Source of the DNA: Thermoflexia bacterium
GTDB lineage: Bacteria; Chloroflexota; Anaerolineae; B4-G1
DNA length: 62,827 nucleotides
NCBI GenBank assembly: GCA_011192155.1
Contig: DUEK01000006.1
Location: 1 to 62,827 of the forward strand
Reading direction: 5' to 3'
The notes beneath the pieces were generated by a model. The model saw only the letters and a program-made list of their open reading frames with translations. It searched no databases and had not been told where the DNA came from. A program made the translations under genes and the position numbers. Below are positions 43,793 through 55,072 of the stretch, one piece after another. Position 1 is the stretch's first letter. Each line of letters opens with the position of its first letter.

Positions 43793-44014
43793 TCAACTGG
43801 GGCGGATGCTCCATTCGTCAGCAGCCTCATTGTAGGCCAGGGTGAAGCGGCGGCCGTCGGCTGTGTGGACGGTGAAGGTCAGGCCAGACAGTGTGCGCCA
43901 TTGTTGCTCCACCGCCTCCACCGTCAAGCGCTCACCTTCCCATAGGAAAGCGCGCGGCCGCTCCGGGTGGCGATATCCGGCGTAACTTTCTACGGCGGCG
44001 TCCATCGTGGTCAC
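43793..44014 (-). CDS. Small conserved-looking protein downstream of galU
   Basis: A 73-residue protein, MTTMDAAVESYAGYRHPERP then RAFLWEGERLTVEAVEQQWR. It reads as a small beta-rich fold ending in FTLAYNEAADEWSIRPS, reminiscent of DUF6504-type proteins, but assignment is weak. GTG 44014 overlaps the galU stop (GTGA), so it is translationally coupled to galU. Confidence 0.55.
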   Translation of the reverse strand: MTTMDAAVESYAGYRHPERPRAFLWEGERLTVEAVEQQWRTLSGLTFTVHTADGRRFTLAYNEAADEWSIRPS

Positions 44015-44871
44015 AGGTCAAGCGAACGGAGATACTTGATCAATCCATCTCGCATGTCGTCGCGCCGCAGGCTCATCTCGATGCAGGCTTTCAGTTGGCG
44101 CAGCGGGTCGCCGGCCGCCATCCACTTGCCCTCGACGGGCTGCACGATAACGGTTGCACGAGCCGCCAGCCGGTCTACCGCGTCGGCCAGCCAAAGTTCG
44201 TCCCCTTTCCCGGTCTCCAGGGTCTCTAGCACGTCGAACAGCTCCGGTGTGAAAACAAAGTGGCCGATCTGAACCCAATTGGAGGGGGCGTCACCGGGCG
44301 CGGGTTTCTCAATGATGCGCTTCATCACGTTATCGCTGCCGGGTTGCAGTTCGATGCAGCCATAAAGATGCGTTTCATCGTCCGGCACGCTTTGGGTGGC
44401 GAGGACGGCCGCCGGTTGATGATTGTTAAATGAATCGAGCATTTGCTGCGGCACCGGCGCGTCGGCAATGATGATGTCGTCGCCGAACATGTAGTAGAAC
44501 GGCTCGCCGGGGGTCAGCCAGTTGCGGGCGGCGAGGGCCGGGGCAGCGTTGCCGTAGGGCAGGCTCTCCGGTTGGCGCACAAAGACGATTTCGGCCATCT
44601 GGGAGATGTGGCGCATATCGTCCAATAGTTCCAGCTTACCCGATTCCTCCAGATGTCGCTCCAGGTCGGGGGTGGGTGCAAAGTGGTGCTGGACCGCCTC
44701 GCTGCCCCCGCGCACGACGACGATGATCTCGGTGATGCCGGCCGCCACCAACCCCTCCACGTGGTACTGGATCAGGGGCACTCCAGCGATGGGAATCATT
44801 TCTTTGGGAACTGCTTTGGATGCCGGCAGGAATCGGGTACCGTATCCGGCGATGGTGATGATGCCTTTCAT
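44011..44871 (-). CDS. galU: UTP-glucose-1-phosphate uridylyltransferase
   Basis: A 286-residue nucleotidyltransferase forming UDP-glucose. GYGTRFLPASKAVPKEM is the nucleotide-binding and catalytic motif, PLIQYHVEGLVAAGI, YMFGDDII (metal Asp) and IIEKPAPG (sugar-phosphate Lys) follow, and VQIGHFVFTPELFDVLE is typical of GalU. The product feeds Ugd (29902) and the glycosyltransferases at 2901 and 60585. ATG 44871 follows GGAGC. The small gene after it is coupled. Confidence 0.93.
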   Translation of the reverse strand: MKGIITIAGYGTRFLPASKAVPKEMIPIAGVPLIQYHVEGLVAAGITEIIVVVRGGSEAVQHHFAPTPDLERHLEESGKLELLDDMRHISQMAEIVFVRQPESLPYGNAAPALAARNWLTPGEPFYYMFGDDIIIADAPVPQQMLDSFNNHQPAAVLATQSVPDDETHLYGCIELQPGSDNVMKRIIEKPAPGDAPSNWVQIGHFVFTPELFDVLETLETGKGDELWLADAVDRLAARATVIVQPVEGKWMAAGDPLRQLKACIEMSLRRDDMRDGLIKYLRSLDL

Positions 44872-44923
44872 TTTTGCTCCTTGTTTCTTGGTATTGATTC
44901 GTTGTTTAGCGATTGTTTATCGC

Positions 44924-46378
44924 TCACAATACTGCCCTTTGCCTGTGCCACTCCGTCGCCTGCTCGTAGGCGTGGGCCACACGCAAAGCAGTCTCCTCGC
45001 CCAGCGGCGGCCCCATCACCTGTAACCCGATGGGGAGACCGGCATCGTCAAAGCCGCAGGGCAGGCTCAACCCGCAGATGCCGGCCAGATTCATCGAAAG
45101 CGTGAACACGTCGCCCAGGTACATTTGCAATGGATCGTCCACTTTCTCGCCGATGGGAAAGGCGGTGGTGGGAGTGGCGGGAGCGACGACGATGTCCACC
45201 TGCTCAAAGGCCGAGTCAAAGTCGGCCTTGATGAGGGTGCGCGCTTTTTGCGCTTTGAGGTAGTAGGCGTCGTAGTAGCCCGCACTGAGGGCGTAAGCGC
45301 CCAGCATGATGCGCCGTTTGACCTCGGGGCCGAACCCTTGCCCCCGAGTCGCCTTGTAGGTCTCGATCAGCCCGTCGCCATCCACCCGCAGGCCATAGCG
45401 CACACCATCGTAGCGGGCCAGGTTGGCGCTGGCCTCCGCCGGCGCGATGAGGTAATAGACCGCCAACGCATAGTCGGTGTGGGGCAGGTTGATCTCGCGC
45501 ACCTCGGCCCCCAGGTCGGACAGCACGTTCACTGCCGCGCGCACCGCTTCCTCCACCTCCGGCTGCATTCCTGCGATGAAATACTCCTGAGGCACGCCCA
45601 CCCGCACTCCCTCCACGTCGCCGGTTAGGGCAGCGGCATAGTCGGGAACCGGCGCGTCCAACGAGGTAGAGTCGCAGGGGTCGTGGCCGGCGATGGCCTC
45701 CAGCAACAGACCAGCGTCGGTGACATCCTGGGCCAGCACGCCGATCTGATCCAATGACGAGGCGAAGGCGATCAACCCGTAGCGGCTGACTCGCCCGTAG
45801 GTGGGCTTGAGGCCGACGATTCCACACAGGCTCGCCGGTTGACGCACGCTGCCGCCGGTATCGCTGCCCAGCGCGCCCAGGCACTCGCCGGCGGCGATGG
45901 CGGCCGCGCTCCCGCCGCTGCTTCCGCCCGGCACGCGGGTCAGGTCCCAGGGGTTGCGCGTGGTGAAGAAGGCCGAGTTCTCCGTCGAGGAGCCCATAGC
46001 GAACTCGTCGGTGTTGGTCTTGCCCAGGAGAATCGCTCCGGCGGCCTTGAGGCGCGCTATGGCGGTGGCGTCGTAGGGTGGGGCGAAATTCTCCAAGATG
46101 CGAGAGCCGGCCGTGGTGGGGACGCCCTCGGTGCAGAGCACGTCCTTGATCGCCAGTGGGATGCCCAGCAGCGGGCCGTCTTCGCCGGCGGCGCGGCGCG
46201 CGTCGGCGGCGAGGGCCTGATCCAACGCGCTCTCCGGCGTCAGCGTCAGGTAGGCTTTGACGTCGTTATCTATCGCCAAGATGCGGGCTAGCACCGCCTC
46301 GGTCAGTTCGAGCGCGGAAATCGCGCCGGTGGCCAGCTGGTCGTGGGCCTCGTGGATGGTCAGTTGACAGAGTTCCAC
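44924..46378 (-). CDS. gatA: Asp-tRNA(Asn)/Glu-tRNA(Gln) amidotransferase subunit A
   Basis: A 484-residue amidase subunit releasing ammonia from glutamine to amidate mischarged tRNA. The Ser-cis-Ser-Lys triad is in [11 protein letters not shown] (Lys), [13 protein letters not shown] (Ser pair) and [12 protein letters not shown] (Gly/Ser loop). GTG 46378 gives the family length and lies four bases after the gatC stop; the longer frame to 46480 overlaps gatC and is not homologous. gatB is not in the window. Confidence 0.95.
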
Positions 46379-46382
46379 AGCT

Positions 46383-46670
46383 CTACTCCAATACCGCCGG
46401 AACCCTGAAGCATCCCTCCTCGGCGGCAGGGGCGTTTGCCAGAATATCCTCGCAGGGGAAGGGAAGCTTGGCCTCGTCATTGCGCATCACGTTGCGCAGC
46501 GGCAGGACGGTCGCCGTGGGGGGAATGGCGCCGGTATCCAGTTCCTGCAGGCGCTCAAAGTACTCTAGGATGGCCGAAAGCTGCTCCTGGTAGAGGGTTT
46601 TTTCCTCGTCGCTCAAGGCCAGCCGGGCCAGATCGGCGATGTGCTCGACTTTTTCTCGATTCAGTTTCAT
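46383..46670 (-). CDS. gatC: Amidotransferase subunit C
   Basis: A 95-residue belt subunit that wraps GatA and Gat[21 protein letters not shown] and [16 protein letters not shown] are its two helices; the end FRVPAVLE is the usual C-terminal strand. ATG 46670 lies eight bases after GGAG. It is cotranscribed with gatA. Confidence 0.93.
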
Positions 46671-46740
46671 CACATACTCCAAGATTGGCGATTAGCAGCG
46701 ATTATAGCATCATCGGAGCAGAGAGGCAACTAAACAGCCG

Positions 46741-46769
46741 CAGGGGCGGCGCAGCGCGCGCCGCCCCTG
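46741..46769. repeat. GC-rich REP-like palindrome
   Basis: CAGGGGCGGCGC and GCGCCGCCCCTG are inverted around a short centre, resembling the REP palindromes at 62529 and 62790 in form. It sits between the SHOCT-like gene end and gatC on the minus strand and could stop transcription. Confidence 0.6.
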
Positions 46770-46832
46770 TCGAAGGGTGTGTGATGAGATTGCTCGGCCA
46801 GGATTATTGAATCTAAAGTCGGAGAATCAAGC

Positions 46833-47213
46833 CTACTCCACGTAGATCTCTACCAGTTCGTTGTCCTCTTCGTCCACGACCTCGATCATCTTGCCCGTCA
46901 TGCCGCTGGCGAGCAATTCCTCTAGTTCCTGTGTGTCGAGGCCGTCGAACTCGGGGGCGAACCGCTCTGCTATGCGCAAGCCCGCGCTCACCAAACCTAT
47001 CGGGATGGTCACGTTGACCTTGCTTTTGCCCGAGTTCACGTCGCTCACGTGGATGCGAAGGTAGCGGTTCTCGCCAGTCGGGCCGGGAGTCCCGGAGCCA
47101 GGGCGCTGCCCTCCGTCCAGCGCCCGCAGTAACGTGGTCGCCTCCTCCGCGCTGATCTTGCCCTCTTCCAACATCTGGAGAATCTTTAGCCGTTCTTCTG
47201 GTGCCTTTGTCAT
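46833..47213 (-). CDS. SHOCT-like domain protein, short
   Basis: A 126-residue protein. Residues 1-30 (ERLKILQMLEEGKISAEEA then a leucine pair) form the short helical hairpin found at one end of YvlB/LiaX- and DUF2089-type proteins. After a Gly/Pro linker comes a beta-rich domain (YLRIHVSDVNSGKSKVNVTI, IPIGLVSAGLRIAERFAPE) ending in an acidic strand. The same beta domain ends the next gene upstream. It is the last gene of a group running from 51025 to 46833. It may be a soluble sensor or adaptor; no activity is known. Confidence 0.7.
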   Translation of the reverse strand: MTKAPEERLKILQMLEEGKISAEEATTLLRALDGGQRPGSGTPGPTGENRYLRIHVSDVNSGKSKVNVTIPIGLVSAGLRIAERFAPEFDGLDTQELEELLASGMTGKMIEVVDEEDNELVEIYVE

Positions 47214-47268
47214 TTTGCGCCTCCTGATCCAGATAAATCAATCGCCCACAACTTGCGGATTTGTCCCC

Positions 47269-47826
47269 CTATCCAAAATAAACTTGCACTTGCTCACCAT
47301 TCTCTCCATCGTCTACTTTCACGACGAAAGGATGGTCGTCTCGTAATTCATCCTGCATCGCCAGAAACAATTTGTCCACCCCTGCATTTTCCAGTTGGGG
47401 GACAAAGGGTTGGGCGATGCGCAGCCCCCAAGTGACGAGGCCCAGCGGCAGTGGGAAGGCCAGGGTGATGTTAGGCCCATCGTGCTGGCGCACCCGCACG
47501 TAGAGCCAGCGGGCCTGTTGCAACCACCAGCCTAGCATCACGCCCAGCACTCCTAGAACAAAGACCACCCAGGCCCAGATCAACCGTCCGGCAGTGGCAG
47601 CCTCGCTGGTGTAGGAGGAGGATAGCAGCCACCCGCCCCACGCCAGCAGCGCCACTCCGATCCAGAACATACCTTGCCACAGCCAGCGCACCAGGGCCGG
47701 GCGAGGAGCGGGAGGAAGCTTGGGCGCTGCGGCGGTCTCTGCCAGCGCTTCCAATCGCCGCACTCCCTCCTCAACGTTGATTCCCCCAGACTCGATTAGC
47801 TCTAGTATTTGTCGTTGTTCATTCAC
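47269..47826 (-). CDS. SHOCT-like membrane protein
   Basis: A 185-residue protein: N-terminal helical hairpin (NEQRQILELIESGGINVEEG), two membrane segments (about 50-70 and 85-105), then the same C-terminal beta domain as the 46833 protein (WLYVRVRQHDGPNITLAFPL, GLVTWGLRIAQPFVPQLENA, ending QVYFG). GTG 47826 follows AAGGAGAAACTT; the longer frame to 47952 has no ribosome site. The two proteins look like a membrane-bound and a soluble version of one module. Confidence 0.7.
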   Translation of the reverse strand: MNEQRQILELIESGGINVEEGVRRLEALAETAAAPKLPPAPRPALVRWLWQGMFWIGVALLAWGGWLLSSSYTSEAATAGRLIWAWVVFVLGVLGVMLGWWLQQARWLYVRVRQHDGPNITLAFPLPLGLVTWGLRIAQPFVPQLENAGVDKLFLAMQDELRDDHPFVVKVDDGENGEQVQVYFG

Positions 47827-47941
47827 AAGTTTCTCCTTATCGAGTTTAGCACGCCAGATTTTCAGTCGTCTGTTCCGCATCGCGTATTTCCACGCTGAGT
47901 GGAGCGTCAATGTCGATCCACTGACCGGCCGGACTGGCAGG

Positions 47942-49156
47942 CTACCTGACACGGCGCTGCAGTAGAGCGAACGACCAAGCTGCTATCAAACCCACTAGCC
48001 CGCCCGCGTACCAGACCCAGCGCGGGTCAAAGTTGTCCATAACCAACCCGGCCAGGAGCGGCCCCACGGCCGACGGGATCACCCAACTGAATCCAAAGAC
48101 CGCCATGTACCGCCCCCGCATATCATCCGGCGCTAACTCGGCCACCAGCGCCTGGGAGGTCGGAGCGACCAGCATCTCGCCGATGGTGATAATGACCATG
48201 GCCGCCAGGAAGAGAACGTAGGCCGAAACAAAGCCATACATACCGAACCCAATCGCGTACAGTAGCGTACCCGCAGCCATCACGATCAACGGCTTGTATC
48301 TGGCGATCCGGCGTGTGATGTAGAACTGGAACAGAACAACCATCGCCGCGTTGAGACTCAGGATGTATCCAAAACCCTGTTCAGAGACCGAGTGAACGTC
48401 CCGCAGATATACGGACAGTGTGGTGTTCATCTGCATATAGACGGTGGTCATCAGAATACAGGCCCCGATGAACAGGACGAAGGCGCCGTCCCGCAAAACG
48501 TCCCGGTAGCCGCCGAACGCCTGGCCCATCGTTTGCTCAGGCTCGCCCTCGCGGAGGGCGGGCTTGGTCTCTCGAATCGCCAGGGCCACGATGCCGGCCG
48601 TGATCGTGCTGGCCACTGCGTCGCAGATGAACAGGAGCAGGTATGATCGGGTGGCCAACAGTCCTCCAATCGCCGGCCCAATGACTACGGCGAGATTGAC
48701 GACCACCCGCAGGAGGCCGAATCCCTGGGCGCGCTTCTCCTCCGGCAACAGATCGGCGACCATCGCTTGCTGCGCCGGCCCGCCGGCGTTGCCGAAAAGC
48801 CCAATGAACAGCGCGCCGACGTAGATAAGCTCGATCGAGTTCACCAACCCCACCATCAAGTTGATGAACGCGCTGATGAGCAAACCAAAGATCACCATGC
48901 CCTTGCGACCAAAGCGGTCGGTCAGCGCGCCGCCCAACACGCTGCCCACAATGCTCGAGAGCGAGACCAGCCCAAAGATCAAGCCAACTTCCGTCATGCC
49001 CACGCTGAATTTTTGCGTGATGTAGAGCGTCAGGAAGGGGAACATGAGCGCCCCGCCGAGCCGGTCAATGAACACGCCCAAGATGAGGATCCAGAACTGG
49101 CGGGGGTACTCGGCATAGATATTGCGAATGTGTTCCAGTAGTTTGTAGTTTGACAT
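47942..49156 (-). CDS. Major facilitator superfamily transporter
   Basis: A 404-residue 12-helix transporter. Motif A, GGALTDRFGRKG, lies between helices 2 and 3, and PEEKRAQGFGLLRVVVNLA is the corresponding segment near helices 4-5; a charged central loop (REGEPEQTMGQAFGG) divides the halves. It resembles drug-efflux permeases of the MdtH/YjcJ type; the substrate is unknown. Its place inside the DUF2089/SHOCT-like group hints at export in response to envelope stress. Confidence 0.85.
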   Translation of the reverse strand: MSNYKLLEHIRNIYAEYPRQFWILILGVFIDRLGGALMFPFLTLYITQKFSVGMTEVGLIFGLVSLSSIVGSVLGGALTDRFGRKGMVIFGLLISAFINLMVGLVNSIELIYVGALFIGLFGNAGGPAQQAMVADLLPEEKRAQGFGLLRVVVNLAVVIGPAIGGLLATRSYLLLFICDAVASTITAGIVALAIRETKPALREGEPEQTMGQAFGGYRDVLRDGAFVLFIGACILMTTVYMQMNTTLSVYLRDVHSVSEQGFGYILSLNAAMVVLFQFYITRRIARYKPLIVMAAGTLLYAIGFGMYGFVSAYVLFLAAMVIITIGEMLVAPTSQALVAELAPDDMRGRYMAVFGFSWVIPSAVGPLLAGLVMDNFDPRWVWYAGGLVGLIAAWSFALLQRRVR

Positions 49157-49256
49157 TTACGTGATCTCCCAAGAAACAAGCATAGCGTCTGCCACAAGAT
49201 TGAGATTTGAAATACGCAAAAACCCGTCAATCTCGAATCAACAAATCCTAAATCAA

Positions 49257-50435
49257 TCAGCGCCCTTCCATCGCGGCCAAGAGATCGGCAGCCTGCTCTG
49301 GGCTGATCTTGCCCTCTTCCACCAGTCGCAGTACTCGCATCTGTTCTTCATCCGAGATGAGTTTCGAGCGGGGGCGAGGGCGCTGACCGCTGGCTCGTCG
49401 CCAGCGACGCTCGGCTCGCTCTGCCCGCAGGCGAGCTTTTTCCGTCTCGTGTTGCGCCTTCCGGCGGGCCTTTTCCGCTTCTTTCTGTGCCTTCTGGCGC
49501 GTCTTTTCCGCCACTCGCTCTACCCGGAGACGCGCCTCCTCGCTATCTATGCGGCCCAGGCTCTCTTCCAGTCGAGCCTCCAGCTCCGCCGTCGCCGCGG
49601 CGATTTGAGCTTCGATCTGCGCGCTCAGTCCCTCCATATCGGCCACAAAATCGAACGGTAGATCATCCGCCAGATGATCGCCCAACTCTGAGAGTCGCAG
49701 GGAGACGCGCCCGTCAACTTGTGCTTCCAGGCTGGCCTCGCCGTTGCCCAAAATGCTTTGCGTCTCACCTTCTATCTTCTCCAGGGCCAGGCCGGGGACG
49801 CGTGAGTGAACTCCACCGCCGGCGTGGAAGGCCAGACGCAGGCTGGAATCTGCCGGGAGGCGGATCGTTAGGTTGCCGCCGACGCTCAAGCTAAAGACAG
49901 CGCCAGGAGAAAAGGGCGGCCCCAATCGGGCGTTTCCCCACACGCGGCTCGCTGCCAGGTCGCCGCGCACTCCTTCGATCGCCAAGTTGCCATCTATTTG
50001 CTCCAGCGAGGCTGAGCCATCCACCTGGCGGATGCGAGCGTTCCCGCGCGCGACCTGCGCGCTCAGATCCCCTGCCGTCTGGCGGACGCTCAAATTGCCA
50101 AACGTCTGCTCCAGGACAACGGGGCCGACGGCGCGCAGCTTGGCGTTGCCGTGGACGGTACCAATGGCGACCGGCCCTTTCACTCCCTCGATCTTTAGAT
50201 TTCCCCGCACCGCGCGGACGGTGAGGGTAGTGTCCGGGGGACAGGTGAGGAAGCAATCAACTCTGGCCTTGAGGGTAAATGCTTCTCCCTCTTGCTCCAG
50301 GGATGCCTCGCCTTCCGCACCTCGCGCATGGACGGCAATCCGCTCCTCATTCGCGCCTCGCACCACCAGATTGCCCAGACACTCGGTGACGGTGACGTGG
50401 GGCGTTGCACAAGTCTCAATAATCTGCTCAAACAT
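49257..50435 (-). CDS. DUF4097 beta-solenoid protein with SHOCT-like tail
   Basis: A 392-residue protein with no signal peptide. Residues 1-245 are short beta repeats (LTVRAVRGNLKIEGVKG, GTVHGNAKLRAVGPVVLEQ) like DUF4097 adhesin-type solenoids. Residues about 265-355 form a highly charged coiled coil (KTRQKAQKEAEKARRKAQ). The last 33 residues, LISDEEQMRVLRLVEEGKIS then PEQAADLLAAMEGR, repeat the helical hairpin of the neighbouring genes. The architecture is the reverse of YvlB, where the hairpin is N-terminal. It is probably a cytoplasmic scaffold. Confidence 0.8.
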   Translation of the reverse strand: MFEQIIETCATPHVTVTECLGNLVVRGANEERIAVHARGAEGEASLEQEGEAFTLKARVDCFLTCPPDTTLTVRAVRGNLKIEGVKGPVAIGTVHGNAKLRAVGPVVLEQTFGNLSVRQTAGDLSAQVARGNARIRQVDGSASLEQIDGNLAIEGVRGDLAASRVWGNARLGPPFSPGAVFSLSVGGNLTIRLPADSSLRLAFHAGGGVHSRVPGLALEKIEGETQSILGNGEASLEAQVDGRVSLRLSELGDHLADDLPFDFVADMEGLSAQIEAQIAAATAELEARLEESLGRIDSEEARLRVERVAEKTRQKAQKEAEKARRKAQHETEKARLRAERAERRWRRASGQRPRPRSKLISDEEQMRVLRLVEEGKISPEQAADLLAAMEGR

Positions 50436-50444
50436 ATTCCCCTC

Positions 50445-50630
50445 CTATATTTGTAGCTTTATCAGACTTGGTTCCGCTCCAGCAACAGGATGAGAACGTC
50501 CCACGAAACGATCTAGTTTGCCCTTCACAGGAGCATCCACCGGGGAGAGGTTTTTTCGCCGGCGGGGCCGCTCCACCGAAATGGTCATTGTTAGAACAGG
50601 AAGGCCCAATCTCAAAACTTGTACAGACAT
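50445..50630 (-). CDS. Small protein of the DUF2089 group
   Basis: ATG 50630 follows AAGGAGGTG at eight bases, the strongest ribosome site in this group, and opens 61 codons, MSVQVLRLGLPVLTMTISVE then a basic stretch RPRRRKN. It was not recognised. It starts 26 bases after the DUF2089 stop and ends nine bases before the DUF4097 start, so it is in the operon. It may be a small regulator. Confidence 0.55.
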   Translation of the reverse strand: MSVQVLRLGLPVLTMTISVERPRRRKNLSPVDAPVKGKLDRFVGRSHPVAGAEPSLIKLQI

Positions 50631-50656
50631 ATCACACACCTCCTTGCATTGAACTA

Positions 50657-51025
50657 CTATTCTTGGAGAAGCTGCAGCGCCTCTTCCGATGAGATTTCCT
50701 TGCGGGCCAATTGCCCTAGAATCCCTTGACGACGCTCGTCACCGGCTCCCCGTTCCTCTACCACTTCGTAGCCCATGGCGCGGATGATCTCTTCCAGACG
50801 GCTGCGGACGGTGGGGTAAGAGATGCCCAGCTCCTCTTCCATGCAGTTGATCTTTCCCGCGCAGCGGACAAAGATCTCTACAAAATGGAGTTGCTCCGGG
50901 GTGAGTTGGAAAAGTCGCCCCATGGCGAAGCGACCCTCCATCTCGGTTCCACAGTTGCGGCAGGCCAGTCGCGTAACCAGTAAACCGTCACGACAAACAG
51001 GACATTCCGTTGGGACAGGATACAT
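50657..51025 (-). CDS. DUF2089 zinc-ribbon/HTH regulator
   Basis: A 122-residue protein: zinc ribbon CPVCRDGLLVTRLACRNCGT (about 8-27), then a helix-turn-helix of DUF2089 type (FVRCAGKINCMEEELGISYP, TVRSRLEEIIRAMG), then the short helical hairpin ILGQLARKEISSEEALQLLQ shared with three other genes here. It is probably a DNA-binding regulator; the palindrome over its own promoter suggests autoregulation. ATG 51025 follows AAGGAG. It is the first gene of the group. Confidence 0.85.
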   Translation of the reverse strand: MYPVPTECPVCRDGLLVTRLACRNCGTEMEGRFAMGRLFQLTPEQLHFVEIFVRCAGKINCMEEELGISYPTVRSRLEEIIRAMGYEVVEERGAGDERRQGILGQLARKEISSEEALQLLQE

Positions 51026-51048
51026 TGTTTTTTCTCCTTAAGAAAATC

Positions 51049-51093
51049 AAGTCATATATTAAGAATTATAATATATAACTTAATTTTTGTCAA
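51049..51093 (-). promoter_or_regulatory. Consensus promoter with overlapping operator palindrome
   Basis: On the minus strand TTGACA (51093-51088), 17 bases, TATAAT (51070-51065): exact sigma-70 consensus boxes. A 33-bp palindrome (51049-51081) with arms AAGTCATATATTA and TAATATATAACTT (12 of 13 paired) covers the -10 box. A bound dimer there would block polymerase, fitting repression by the DUF2089 protein it drives. Confidence 0.75.
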
Positions 51094-51237
51094 GAGGCAA
51101 ATTGAGTAACCGATACCAGGTGTCTATTTGCCGACGACTAGGCTGACCGGCTGGACAAACTGGTCGCTTAGTGGCATAATCAAGGTACTTTATACGCCCC
51201 GATAGCGCATTGTCCCTCAAACCACAGGAGGCGCGTC

Positions 51238-51363
51238 TTGAGAGAATTGACCAGACTGGCGTTAAATATGGCCCAGGCGCGCGGCGCGACTTGCGTCGAA
51301 AGAACACGACGAGCCGCGTTTATGGAGACACGAGTTCTAGACCGCCTTGAACGAGCTTGCTAA
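51238..51363 (+). pseudogene. TldD/PmbA-like N-terminal remnant (tentative)
   Basis: TTG 51238 lies six bases after GGAGG, and a possible promoter TGGACA-17-CATAAT lies upstream. The first 18 residues, LRELTRLALNMAQARGAT, look like the N-terminal helix of TldD/PmbA peptidases, but the frame then degenerates and stops after 41 codons. The rest of the gene is absent. It could be a remnant whose expression signals now serve the overlapping next gene. Apart from this and the divergent promoter, 51094-51346 holds nothing. Confidence 0.35.
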
Positions 51364-51967
51364 GCAGATCCCGCGCTGGTTGTGGCGCGTCGAGCTGGGG
51401 CTGGCGGCCCTGGCGCTGGCGGGCGCGCTGGCTCTGATCGTCGCGCTGGCCCTGGGCTGGAACAGCCCTCGCCCCTCCCGCCTCCCGGATTGGCAGGCCG
51501 CCGCTCTCCCCCTGCGCCTGGAAGCCCCGCCGAACGAGACTATGCTGCTGCTGCTGCCCCATCACAGCGGCGACTTTACTTTGGAAATTGAGGCCATCCC
51601 ACTCCCAGGCCCAGACTGCCACGGCTACGGCCTGATCTACCGCGCCCAGGATGATGCTGCTTATTATACCTTTGCCGTCGGCCGCGATGGCTACTATGCC
51701 GTCCTGCGGGTGACGGGTGATGAGGAGGTAGAACTTGTGAGCTGGCAGCAGTTCCCCCACGTTCATCGAGGCCAGCAGTCCAACCTGCTGCGCGTGGCCT
51801 GCGCGGGATACACCTGCCGTTTCTACGTCAACGACGAATACGCCGCCACCGTCGAGGACGACACCTGGCTGGCGGGCAACGTGGGGCTGTGGGTGCGCGG
51901 CTTTGGAAACGGAAGCGCGGCGATCCGGTTCCTGAACGCGCGCGCCTGGTCAGCCGCCGGGCCCTAA
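51347..51967 (+). CDS. Membrane-anchored LamG/GH16-like protein
   Basis: A 206-residue protein: short basic start, one membrane helix (about 12-38), then an extracytoplasmic beta sandwich with GYGLIYRAQDDAAYYTFAVG and NVGLWVRGFGNGSAAIRFLN, the pattern of concanavalin-like domains (DUF1080/LamG) that bind glycans. No catalytic Glu pair is evident. The start TTG 51347 is uncertain; it overlaps the TldD-like remnant. It lies upstream of tsaC but the latter has its own promoter. Confidence 0.65.
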   Translation: MNELAKQIPRWLWRVELGLAALALAGALALIVALALGWNSPRPSRLPDWQAAALPLRLEAPPNETMLLLLPHHSGDFTLEIEAIPLPGPDCHGYGLIYRAQDDAAYYTFAVGRDGYYAVLRVTGDEEVELVSWQQFPHVHRGQQSNLLRVACAGYTCRFYVNDEYAATVEDDTWLAGNVGLWVRGFGNGSAAIRFLNARAWSAAGP

Positions 51968-51993
51968 ACCTGCATAGGCGGAGTGACATTCGT

Positions 51994-52022
51994 TTGACGG
52001 CCTTCATGGGCCGTGTTATACT
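51994..52022 (+). promoter_or_regulatory. Promoter of tsaC, nearly leaderless
   Basis: TTGACG (51994-51999), 17 bases, TATACT (52017-52022). The ATG at 52038 is 15 bases past the -10 box, so the 5' leader would be about eight bases and has no Shine-Dalgarno site. Confidence 0.7.
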
Positions 52023-52037
52023 TGCCCCCTGATACCG

Positions 52038-52700
52038 ATGAAGACAGAAATCATTCACACAGGCAGCGACAACGCCCTGCCACGCGCCGCCGAGGTGTTG
52101 AAAAACGGGGAACTGGTCGCCTTTCCCACCGACACCGTCTACGGGTTGGCGGCGTCTCCGTGGAACGCGGACGGTGTGGCCCGCCTGTACAAAGCCAAGC
52201 AACGCCCATCAAATAGACCCATCCCGCTCCTGCTATCCGACGCCGGCCAGTTGAGCCGCGTCGCCATGCTCCCACCTCAGTTTAGCCGCCAGGTCAGGCA
52301 ATTGATCGCGCGCTTCTGGCCCGGTGGACTGACGTTGGTGCTACCCAAAACCGCCATCGTGCCCGATACAATCAGCCAAGGCCCCACCGTCGCCGCGCGC
52401 GTGCCCGGCCTGCCGCTGGCCCGCGCACTCATTCGGGATGCGGGTGGGGTACTGGCAGTGACTAGCGCCAACCTCTCAGGGCAGCCCAGCCCCATCACCG
52501 CCCAAGAGGTCGAGGCGCAACTGGGTGGGCGGATCGAACTGATCCTCGACGGCGGCCCCTGCCGGGGAGGCGTCCCATCCAGCCTTCTCGATTGCACCCT
52601 CTCTCCTCCGTTGTTGCTGCGGCGCGGCGCCGTCTCCCAAGAAGATTTGCAAAGAGTCATCGGGTCGCTGCAATCCCCAACGCGGAGGTCCGACCGATGA
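52038..52700 (+). CDS. tsaC: L-threonylcarbamoyladenylate synthase
   Basis: A 220-residue YrdC/Sua5-type enzyme making threonylcarbamoyl-AMP for the t6A37 modification of tRNA. GELVAFPTDTVYGLAAS forms the entrance of the active site; YKAKQRPSNRPIPLLL (K-x-R), ARFWPGGLTLVLPK and AVTSANLSGQPSP complete it. It lacks the C-terminal Sua5 domain. Its stop overlaps the start of the DUF2723 gene (ATGA), so the two are coupled. Confidence 0.95.
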   Translation: MKTEIIHTGSDNALPRAAEVLKNGELVAFPTDTVYGLAASPWNADGVARLYKAKQRPSNRPIPLLLSDAGQLSRVAMLPPQFSRQVRQLIARFWPGGLTLVLPKTAIVPDTISQGPTVAARVPGLPLARALIRDAGGVLAVTSANLSGQPSPITAQEVEAQLGGRIELILDGGPCRGGVPSSLLDCTLSPPLLLRRGAVSQEDLQRVIGSLQSPTRRSDR

Positions 52701-55072
52701 CGTCCAGCGACCGGCACCCGCTATCCAACATTCTCGTTCCGGCCCTGCTCTTTGTGGCCGTCTTTACCCTCTACGCCGCCACCGCCGCTCCGGCCACTCT
52801 CTTTGGCGATCCCTCCGAGTATCAGTTCATCCCCGCCATCGCCGGGATCGCCCACCCGCCCGGCTATACCTTTTACACCCTGCTGGCCAAGCTCTGGCAG
52901 ACCCTTGCGCCGTTCGGCGCCATAGCCTTCCGCACCAACCTGCTGGCGGCGGCGGTGGGCGCCTGGACCGTCATCGCCGTCTACCTGATCACCTCTGACC
53001 TCAGCGCCTCACACTTGACGTTTGACGTTTCACGTTTCACGTTTTACGCTTCACTCCTCGCCGCCCTGTGTCTCGCCGCCGCCCCCGACTTTTGGCAGCA
53101 CTCTATCCACGCCAACGCTCACATCGTCAGCGCGGCGCTGGCCGCCACTCACATGTGGCTCCTCATTCGCTGGCGGCGCACCGATAACGACTGCTGGCTG
53201 GCTGTCTTTGCCCTCACCCTGGGCCTGGCTGCCGCTCACCACCCGGTCACGCTGATAGGCGTCCCCGCCTATGGCCTCTTTGTCCTGACCGCGCGGCCCC
53301 GCATCCTGCGCCAGTGGCGGACGTTGTTGTTGCTGCTCGGTTGCTTGCTCTTGGGATTATCCCCGCTCCTCTACTACCCTCTGCGCAGCCCCAGCGCCCC
53401 TTTCGGCCCCACCGATATGCGTACCTGGGAGGGGTTTTGGGGGCACATCACCGCCAGGGGGTTGCGCGTCAACCTCTTCCATTTTGGCCTGGCCGATCAA
53501 CTCGACCGCGCGTTGGTCTTTTGGTCGCTCCTGCGGCTCCAGTTCCCGTTGCCCGTCATTATCCTGATCGCCGCCGGACTGATTTGGCTCGTCTACCGCG
53601 CACCAAAGTCCGCCATCCTCATCTGCTCATTCATCCTCATCCATCTACTCTTTACCCTCAACACCGTCCAGGATGTGATGGCCTACCTGCTCCTGCCATT
53701 CGTCGCGCTATCCATCGCCGCCGGCCTCGGCGCACTGGCTATCGCCGAACTCGAACTCCCAAACCCCAAATCCCCAATTGCCCATTGTGCATTGTGCATT
53801 GTTCATTGTTCATTGCTAATTCTGCCCTTCTACCAGGCTACCCTAAACCTCACTCGTGGCATATCCCTGCGCGATTTCACCGTCGCCGAGGAATACGTCA
53901 CCGCCGTCTACGAGCGCTTTGCCGGACGCGGCGAGGGCGCGGTGCTGCTTTCAGACTGGGAGCACCTGACACCCCTCTGGGTACACGCCTACACCCAGGG
54001 GGAGACGCTAGATAAAGATGACGTGCAACTGGTTTACGTCTCCACCGCCAACCCGTGGGTCGAGTCGGTGTGGGCGCACATCGAGCAAGGCGACATCTAC
54101 TTGCCCGACTACCGGCCTGCGGTGCGAGACGCCGGTTTTCGCTTGCTACCGGAGGGGCCTTTCTACCGCGTCATCGCGCCGCCACTGACGGACACCGCCC
54201 CCACTCACTCTCTCGACGTCTGGGCCGATGGCCGCGTCCACATCCTGGGCTACGATCTGCCGGCCGACACCGTCCAGGCGGGCGAGCATTTGGAGCTGAT
54301 CCTCTACCAGAGCGCGCCGCAGCCGCTGGACGGCATCTGGATGCCCTACGCCCAACTCGGCCCCGCACAAGCCCGCTGGACCACCGACAGCCGCCTCCTC
54401 ACAACCCAGTGGCTGCCCGGTGAGGTGGTGGCGGAGCGATACGAACTACCGATCCCCTTCACCCTACCGCCGGGAGAATACCCACTCCGCTTGGGCTACG
54501 CTGACCTGAGCGGCGGGCGAGAAGAACTAGAGCTTTCCACCGGAGGGGCCACGCTGGAACTGGAGACCGTCACCGTATTGCCGCCCGCCAACGCTCCCTC
54601 GGCAAAAACTCTGGAGCAGGCGCTGGCTAACCTGGACAACCAGATAGCTCTGATGGGAGCGCGGGCGCGGGCGGGCTGGCAGACGCGGGCGGGATTCTGG
54701 GAGGAACCACTGCCCGTCCAGGCCGGGCGGCCCTTGCACCTCACCCTCACTTGGCGTGCTCTGGCCTCTCCCCGCAGTAGCTATACCATCTTTGTTCACC
54801 TGATAGACGGCGCAGGCCGCCCCGTCGCCGGGCACGACTACACCCCTCTGGGCGGAGCCTGCCCCACTTACCTGTGGTTCCCCAAGTGGCTGCCGGGGCA
54901 GACCCTGCAAGACCCCTACCGGCTGCCCCTGCCATCTGACCTGCCACCGGGCGACTACCAACTGGAAGTAGGTATGTACGGGATGACTTCCCTTCGGCGG
55001 CTTCCTGTGGTAGACTTGGGGGGAAGTCTGGCCGGCGACCGCGTCATCTTGGGGCCGGTGCGGGTAGAGTAG
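52697..55072 (+). CDS. DUF2723 (GT117-like) membrane glycosyltransferase
   Basis: A 791-residue protein. The N-terminal half has about 11 membrane helices; TLFGDPSEYQFIPAIAGIAH then PPGYTFYTLL is the signature of DUF2723 protein O-mannosyltransferase-like enzymes, with acidic catalytic residues in the first loop. The C-terminal half (from about 390) is extracytoplasmic and beta-rich (HSLDVWADGRVHILGYDLPA, PLHLTLTWRALASPRSSYTI), common in this phylum. Two low-complexity repeat tracts lie in frame: around 53015-53045 (ACGTTTGACGTTTCACG) and 53775-53815 (CATTGTGCATTGTGCATTG). ATG 52697 follows GGAGG and overlaps tsaC. Confidence 0.85.
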   Translation: MTSSDRHPLSNILVPALLFVAVFTLYAATAAPATLFGDPSEYQFIPAIAGIAHPPGYTFYTLLAKLWQTLAPFGAIAFRTNLLAAAVGAWTVIAVYLITSDLSASHLTFDVSRFTFYASLLAALCLAAAPDFWQHSIHANAHIVSAALAATHMWLLIRWRRTDNDCWLAVFALTLGLAAAHHPVTLIGVPAYGLFVLTARPRILRQWRTLLLLLGCLLLGLSPLLYYPLRSPSAPFGPTDMRTWEGFWGHITARGLRVNLFHFGLADQLDRALVFWSLLRLQFPLPVIILIAAGLIWLVYRAPKSAILICSFILIHLLFTLNTVQDVMAYLLLPFVALSIAAGLGALAIAELELPNPKSPIAHCALCIVHCSLLILPFYQATLNLTRGISLRDFTVAEEYVTAVYERFAGRGEGAVLLSDWEHLTPLWVHAYTQGETLDKDDVQLVYVSTANPWVESVWAHIEQGDIYLPDYRPAVRDAGFRLLPEGPFYRVIAPPLTDTAPTHSLDVWADGRVHILGYDLPADTVQAGEHLELILYQSAPQPLDGIWMPYAQLGPAQARWTTDSRLLTTQWLPGEVVAERYELPIPFTLPPGEYPLRLGYADLSGGREELELSTGGATLELETVTVLPPANAPSAKTLEQALANLDNQIALMGARARAGWQTRAGFWEEPLPVQAGRPLHLTLTWRALASPRSSYTIFVHLIDGAGRPVAGHDYTPLGGACPTYLWFPKWLPGQTLQDPYRLPLPSDLPPGDYQLEVGMYGMTSLRRLPVVDLGGSLAGDRVILGPVRVE

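Follow-up and report, generated by a model that had tools for sequence, protein, structure and literature searches.

A putative Toastrack-DUF2089 operon for membrane stress or efflux, with related SHOCT-like hairpins in its regulator and three partner proteins

Why should a DNA-binding regulator, a beta-solenoid protein, a membrane protein, and a small soluble protein, all encoded side by side, carry one and the same short helical hairpin? The question is raised by a Thermoflexia bacterium (GenBank assembly GCA_011192155.1; 3.4 Mb, 83% complete), from which we analyzed the 62,827 nucleotides of contig DUEK01000006.1, hereafter the window. Its nearest loci in our genome collection come from Thermoflexia, Thermoflexales, and Anaerolineae metagenome-assembled genomes. 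An initial annotation had picked out a gene group at 46833-51093, and its genes are indeed found there, as six open reading frames (ORFs) that all lie on the minus strand, span ∼4.3 kb, and follow the order DUF2089 regulator, 61-aa ORF, Toastrack protein, major facilitator superfamily (MFS) transporter, two-helix membrane protein, and soluble twin. The features are as follows.

51065-51093, minus strand: sigma-70-type promoter TTGACA-17-TATAAT ahead of the DUF2089 gene, matching 12/12 consensus positions and conserved in relatives
51047-51083, no strand assigned: putative operator, a 37-bp inverted repeat TTAAGTTATAT-N15-ATATGACTTGA straddling the -10 hexamer
50657-51025, minus strand: DUF2089 regulator, 122 aa, with a zinc ribbon, a helix-turn-helix (HTH), and a C-terminal SHOCT-like hairpin (∼50663-50731)
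50445-50630, minus strand: 61-aa ORF between the regulator and Toastrack genes, preceded by a good ribosome-binding site
49257-50435, minus strand: Toastrack (DUF4097-like) protein, 392 aa, with a beta-solenoid, a long coiled coil, and a C-terminal SHOCT-like hairpin (49260-49349)
47942-49156, minus strand: MFS transporter of efflux type, 404 aa (PF07690, expectation value (E) 1.7e-71)
47269-47826, minus strand: two-helix membrane protein with an N-terminal hairpin (47737-47823), two transmembrane helices, and a C-terminal copy of the soluble twin's domain
46833-47213, minus strand: soluble twin, 126 aa, with an N-terminal hairpin (47106-47198) and a beta-beta-alpha-alpha-beta-beta (ββααββ) domain
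46737-46770, minus strand: strong GC-rich stem-loop after the last gene (-32 kcal/mol, z -3.9)

The hairpin already has a Pfam name, PF22746 (SHOCT-like_DUF2089-C). This family matches the soluble twin with E 2.8e-12 (∼46 bits), the Toastrack protein with 7.8e-11 (∼42 bits), the membrane protein with 7.1e-5 (22.7 bits), and the DUF2089 C terminus with 0.018 (15.1 bits), only the first two passing the curated cut-off of 27 bits. A whole-genome search at E≤10 returned six matches, namely the four operon proteins and two weak others (0.038 and 0.43); the operon holds all credible hairpin copies of the genome. At E≤0.01, PF22746 is found in every homologue scanned of the soluble twin (50/50), the Toastrack protein (39/39), and the membrane protein (25/25). 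The placement given by the initial annotation, N-terminal in the 46833 and 47269 proteins and C-terminal in the 49257 and 50657 proteins, is correct; its shared core, EGKISAEEA, is present in the 46833 protein and has to be relaxed for the other three, which read EGKISPEQA, SGGINVEEG, and RKEISSEEA. Hydropathy indicates no transmembrane segment in three of the four hairpin proteins (regulator, Toastrack protein, and soluble twin). A helical-hairpin match to TFS4 (7oqy_Q) spans only ∼31-37 residues.

The relatedness of the four copies was examined with profile hidden Markov models (HMMs), each built from the hairpins of one protein group alone. An HMM of 81 DUF2089 C termini recovered, at E<0.01, 79/83 soluble, 51/76 Toastrack, and 22/35 membrane-protein ORFs, that is, 152 partner hairpin ORFs, and matched just 2 further ORFs among 13,941, both hairpin-bearing. 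On the window proteins it scored 3.2e-8 (soluble twin), 0.0088 (Toastrack), and 0.05 (membrane protein). Conversely, an HMM of 23 non-DUF2089 hairpins, taken from the window and its family relatives (the 80 loci described below include some of the same genomes), recovered DUF2089 C termini in many relatives, the best with E 4e-8 (locus L074). The window regulator's own hairpin is weak by itself (0.72, 0.49, and 0.0051 with three group HMMs), and we accept its homology because the copies of its relatives, such as that of L074, score clearly. These reciprocal matches mean that the shared hairpin reflects real homology, so the claim that four proteins carry a related hairpin stands, and the profile comparison that might have exposed the hairpins as unrelated found the opposite.

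The grouping of these genes is likewise kept in relatives. One scan yielded 80 loci with a DUF2089 homologue, 78 from Chloroflexota and two from Firmicutes (Lederbergia and Peptococcaceae). Single-query phmmer searches detected the soluble twin in 65 of them and the Toastrack protein in 60; the membrane protein turned up in 27 and the MFS transporter in 19. Restricting the count to the 49 loci whose downstream sequence reaches at least 6 kb gave, in the same order, 47, 36, 16, and 14. All 184 hairpins found in the 80 loci (E<0.01) lie on the regulator's strand and within 6.5 kb downstream of it, a zone that makes up 428,586 of 1,141,222 bases. In an even sample of 151 Chloroflexota genomes, DUF2089 occurs in 101 and PF22746 in 92 (E≤0.001). 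The best 150 hairpins listed there comprise 9 that belong to DUF2089 ORFs themselves (no more than 200 bp from the HTH), 128 that have a DUF2089 gene within 12 kb, and 13 that have none so close; outside DUF2089 ORFs, the near fraction is thus 128/141, and a recount without seven below-cut-off DUF2089 places left the totals unchanged. Within the window's own family, the hairpin is present in 10/11 genomes and DUF2089 in 8/11. A minimal form in Anaerolineaceae (e.g., L120-L128) has the hairpin in the regulator and the soluble twin only. The absence of clustering in relatives, named at the outset as fatal to the idea, was looked for and not seen; the cluster is kept across Chloroflexota.

Separately, six genomes of one family (f24) contain a further hairpin in a ∼480-aa ORF far from DUF2089, at the following places.

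G078:C1:5014660, G158:C2:4020076, G060:C5:565944, G069:C61:8634, G142:C482:2104, and G118:C196:3573: f24 hairpins

The regulator matches PF09862 (7.6e-24; 83.6 bits against a cut-off of 33.4) and PF22747 (2.2e-11) in addition to PF22746, and the zinc-ribbon cysteines C8, C11, C22, and C25 are invariant in 6/6 sequences. Judged by its sequence, it is a DUF2089 protein, with (i) a four-cysteine zinc ribbon, (ii) an HTH, and (iii) a C-terminal hairpin that is weak in the window copy and clear in relatives.

Upstream regions were compared for 67 loci and the window, 13 of the 80 loci being unused, and 17 of them show by eye one element, TTGACA followed by TTAAGTNATAT-N15-ATATNACTTAA, with a constant 37-bp span and the -10 hexamer inside. 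For 15 of the 17 rows, picked by eye and aligned after leaving out L061 and L068 as near-duplicates, identity was 100% in the -35 hexamer, 74% and 56% in the two arms, and 33% in the upstream flank. Arm-to-arm pairing held in 71.5% of cells, compared with 27.6-52.1% when the arms were slid against each other, and five arm pairs showed two-sided change (reached by 3/500 shuffles), including TTAACC...GGTTAA in L067. The full palindrome occurs once in the window's genome at ≤3 mismatches, and a regulon search found no second operator-like site there; a promoter-like half-match with 3 mismatches at C97 was dropped because the full inverted repeat is not matched there at ≤3 mismatches. A search of the 11 family genomes with the extended pattern gave a single site in each of six, always at the DUF2089 promoter, and none in the backward control; the two remaining DUF2089-bearing genomes are G004, whose element is divergent, and G007, whose contig breaks off within the gene. 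With one site per genome, at the DUF2089 gene itself, the circuit looks self-contained.

Among the regulator's partners, the membrane protein had been assigned a start at 47952; the GTG at 47826 is most likely the true start, being preceded by AAGGAG six bases upstream and matching the position at which homologues begin. With two transmembrane helices, both ends of this protein would lie on one side of the membrane. The same domain follows the two helices in the membrane protein and the hairpin in the soluble twin. A structure model of the soluble twin (predicted local distance difference test (pLDDT) 75; predicted template-modelling score (pTM) 0.46) consists of the hairpin, a low-confidence linker, and the ββααββ domain. 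No Pfam family was assigned to this domain in 50/50 homologues, where four stray matches (E 0.003-0.01) involve one or two members each, and the PDB gave no Foldseek match at E≤0.001 and no VIA-align 2 match at Z≥5. We do not claim the fold as new because the model is middling. We discounted a profile sequence match to designed TIM barrels (E 9e-8), which we attribute to chance likeness between short charged stretches, because those structures are absent from the listed fold-search rows.

The Toastrack protein is better modelled (pLDDT 89, and ∼98 across most of the solenoid) and shows 27 strands in the solenoid, followed by a long coiled coil and, at the C terminus, the hairpin. Its top Foldseek match is 4qrk (E 2.2e-7, prob 1.00), with 4opw also listed (E 5e-3); these are the two Toastrack structures given by Ravi et al. 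2024 (PMC11237479). The model matches the beta-helix fold of 4QRK/4OPW, at low template-modelling scores (∼0.17-0.39) that leave handedness and register unproven. By sequence, it scores 0.045 with the DUF4097 model, below the cut-off, and DUF4097 has no match at 0.001 in the window's genome; 20/39 Toastrack homologues match at E≤0.01. In several Anaerolineales the soluble twin is followed by a second Toastrack-like protein, shorter than the first and with a diverged hairpin of its own at the C terminus, which brings the number to as many as five hairpins per operon.

L086:12762-13691, L094:9531-10466, L098:3839-4747, L103:13065-13970, and L109:12816-13742: second Toastrack-like proteins

The transporter is a variable part of the group. 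An MFS gene lies downstream of the regulator in 33/78 loci, a count based on 77 loci and the window that leaves out L071, L091, and L134, in which naive gene calling lost the regulator. Its position relative to the membrane and soluble genes varies: it may precede them, separate them, or follow them. The window protein resembles YdeE (3.6e-33) and the H+ antiporter TIGR00900 (4.3e-32), both below cut-offs. Nine scanned MFS proteins belong to different families, and for three of them the best matches include Mef(A/B)-type macrolide-efflux models, below cut-offs; the window protein differs from these in type. The slot thus holds different MFS families by genome (window 47942-49156; L059, L065, and L120), as if the pump were an exchangeable payload, and ABC-transporter genes occur in the same stretch of L112, L116, L118, and L123.

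How do these parts compare with systems already described? According to Ravi et al. 2024 (PMC11237479), DUF2089 has a ZnR-HTH-SHOCT-like architecture and is found with Toastrack in a four-gene context, Toastrack recurs as a partner in membrane-stress systems, and Toastrack-DUF2089 operons are predicted to pass a membrane signal to transcription, with output to a wide range of genes. Since architecture, context, and function are given there, the central idea of the initial annotation, a system that relays a membrane signal to the regulator, is already in print as a prediction; it is not new as an idea, and it gains here from the hairpin homology, the clustering in relatives, and a set of parts that fit such a system. 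The locus resembles that context in its ZnR-HTH-SHOCT-like regulator, its Toastrack protein, hairpins at either terminus, and the membrane-to-transcription prediction, and departs from it in its membrane component: the variants described there are LiaI-LiaF-TM, B-box, or PspC, whereas the window has a hairpin-two-helix-domain protein without such a Pfam match. In that paper we found no mention of an MFS slot (the term MFS is absent from its main text), the common ββααββ domain, the operator, or the small protein described below. Nor did we find the four-hairpin set, the common domain, the single-site operator, or the small protein in the literature on DUF2089, SHOCT, Toastrack, LiaX/DUF4097, and Chloroflexota envelope stress, and the repeated hairpin set, the unnamed common domain, and a one-copy self-control site at the promoter appear to be new. 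The DUF2089 literature yielded no study of how any DUF2089 protein works.

Other systems are akin by parts. Bacillus subtilis YvlABCD and Listeria lmo2484-2487 also have a Toastrack protein in a membrane-stress operon, but are described as carrying PspC and holin-like proteins; the B. subtilis control genome has PF22746 and no match to PF09862. For enterococcal LiaFSR-LiaXYZ, a parallel drawn in the initial annotation, control is reported to act via a domain of LiaX and via LiaY, its small partner in the membrane; the likeness lies in descriptions of the system. It uses a two-component system, and part of LiaX is extracellular, whereas our operon has neither kinase nor response regulator. The operon proteins gave no Pfam match to a LiaRS pair, LiaI-LiaF-TM, or PspC (the PspC/LiaF search covering the operon), and PspA (PF04012) had 0 matches at E≤0.001 in the 83%-complete genome, while being found in 9/14 control genomes. 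The canonical SHOCT domain (PMC3581485) is described as likewise short, present on many unrelated proteins, and often C-terminal; PF22746 is a separate SHOCT-like family, set beside it here by description. In addition, three bacteriocin papers place DUF2089 proteins beside ABC exporters in leaderless-bacteriocin clusters, which fits a link of this regulator family to membrane-active compounds. By analogy at the family level, these comparisons suggest a link to envelope stress.

We hold, with about even confidence, that this Toastrack-DUF2089 operon is self-contained and autoregulated, works without PspA, and serves membrane stress or efflux. The regulator would bind the 37-bp repeat at its own promoter and thereby repress its own operon, since a protein covering the DNA between the -35/-10 spacer and about position +10 would keep RNA polymerase out. 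Upon membrane perturbation, the membrane protein would recruit or release the regulator via the common hairpins, and so, by way of the membrane protein, would the cytoplasmic Toastrack scaffold and the soluble twin; release would derepress the operon, including a pump that may expel the membrane-active compound, and fresh partners would then capture the regulator or reset the circuit. Hairpin-bearing partners would be natural tethers or decoys for the regulator. The steps of lowest certainty are the sign (repressor, not activator) and the hairpin-hairpin contact. A decoy circuit, in which the regulator's hairpin was copied onto three partners and the regulator moves between a single DNA site and these partners in the cytosol and at the membrane, with the operon as sole target and the pump as exchangeable payload, seems to us improbable. 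DUF2089 is widespread, and the locus offers a circuit that lends itself to direct testing, with a single regulator, one predicted DNA site per genome, four hairpins that match, and an exporter that can be swapped. The regulator and soluble twin form a minimal version suited to biochemistry, the structure of the unnamed domain is worth solving, and hairpins that do pair would bear on the purpose of SHOCT-like domains, which the paper that introduced the name SHOCT left unanswered in 2013 (PMC3581485).

Several explanations compete with this proposal. The hairpin could dock proteins at the inner face of the membrane or onto one common third partner, each protein being recruited independently and with no mutual contact, which we judge possible though on balance unlikely. 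For SHOCT-like domains, Ravi et al. 2024 predict a role in tethering varied domains to the inner leaflet, Eberhardt et al. 2013 found no oligomerization for canonical SHOCT in initial experiments, and three of the four hairpin proteins have no transmembrane segment of their own; against this, anchoring alone is redundant in a membrane protein that has two transmembrane helices as well as the hairpin, and the minimal Anaerolineaceae form retains the hairpin in the regulator and soluble twin only. Convergence of short amphipathic helices is very improbable: the motif is indeed short (∼30 residues) and charged, and the window regulator's copy is weak alone, but a chance or convergent likeness is rejected by the specificity of the DUF2089-only HMM (152 partner ORFs, and elsewhere two hairpin genes) and by the placement of 184/184 hairpins downstream of the regulator.

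The signal and the target might also differ from those proposed. It is unlikely, in our estimate, that the locus is a plain drug-efflux operon whose DUF2089 repressor answers a cytoplasmic ligand of the ββααββ domain, the membrane not being the signal: an MFS gene is the commonest extra gene, Mef-type models appear in three of nine scanned proteins, and the soluble twin has a compact domain of unassigned role, yet Toastrack recurs with membrane-stress systems, a membrane-bound copy of the domain exists, and many loci have no transporter nearby. Equally doubtful is a promoter element that serves another regulator or is just a strong promoter, with DUF2089 acting elsewhere to activate many genes. 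Near-perfect -35 and -10 hexamers would be conserved by themselves, and a wide gene output is what Ravi et al. 2024 predict; however, the outer arms and the constant 37-bp span are kept in most aligned elements, and in 6/11 family genomes the site occurs once, at the DUF2089 gene.

Other observations weigh against the autoregulated operon that we prefer. (i) No MFS gene was seen near the regulator in 45/78 loci, some of whose contigs end early. (ii) Arm covariation is modest, the covariation score being reached in 50/500 shuffles and a further measure in 66/500, with 15 eye-picked rows; in L066, L069, L077, and L078, which are Thermoflexus-like, the palindrome is poor in its second arm; and many Anaerolineales loci, where the regulator often follows a small gene, have no such element. 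(iii) A partial Mantel test found no hairpin-specific co-evolution, control pairs scoring equal or higher (which makes the test uninformative), regulator HTH versus partner hairpin scoring at least as high as hairpin versus hairpin, and the membrane-protein hairpin giving no clear signal. (iv) The initial experiments of Eberhardt et al. 2013 (PMC3581485) do not support canonical SHOCT as an oligomerization domain, and we found no binding, expression, or stress data for any operon member.

The 61-aa ORF, listed in the initial annotation as a member of the group, belongs there by position, since the slot often has a small ORF in relatives, and not by sequence conservation: it has no family match, it was not detected by phmmer in other loci, and a two-sequence comparison gave a single weak relative in L061 (E 8e-5). 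A family of small proteins (∼70-85 aa) with the motif LGDxLIxxGxxLKxRY is encoded immediately ahead of the DUF2089 gene in Anaerolineales; in Thermoflexus-like genomes it occupies the gap between the DUF2089 and Toastrack genes. It directly precedes the regulator in 18 loci, picked by eye for HMM building, and the resulting HMM (E<0.01) adds the gap ORFs of L066, L068, L069, and L077 and a pre-regulator ORF in L123; seven scanned members had no Pfam match above cut-off. The window's 61-aa ORF occupies the same regulator-Toastrack slot, but resembles the L061 ORF only.

L098:629-841, L109:9786-10001, L112:9750-10001, L066:1511-1735, and others: small-protein examples

Ten loci have a conserved ∼325-350-aa protein in the operon, mostly between the regulator or Toastrack gene and the soluble twin.

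L070:12297-13271, L072:11674-12672, L073:6398-7399, and L080:10373-11398: ∼325-350-aa protein (cluster 3)

At the downstream edge, a terminator-like site with a weak U-run overlaps the stem-loop at 46737-46770, which is probably the operon end before gatC; gatC and gatA come after it, and neither stays with the cluster in relatives. No Rfam element scored above its gathering threshold at 44000-54000, and a tRNA-linked island was ruled out, the window having no tRNA. Upstream of the operon and divergent from it, a 206-aa protein (51347-51967, plus strand) matches no Pfam family above cut-off and is kept in one family relative (L037, 54% identity).

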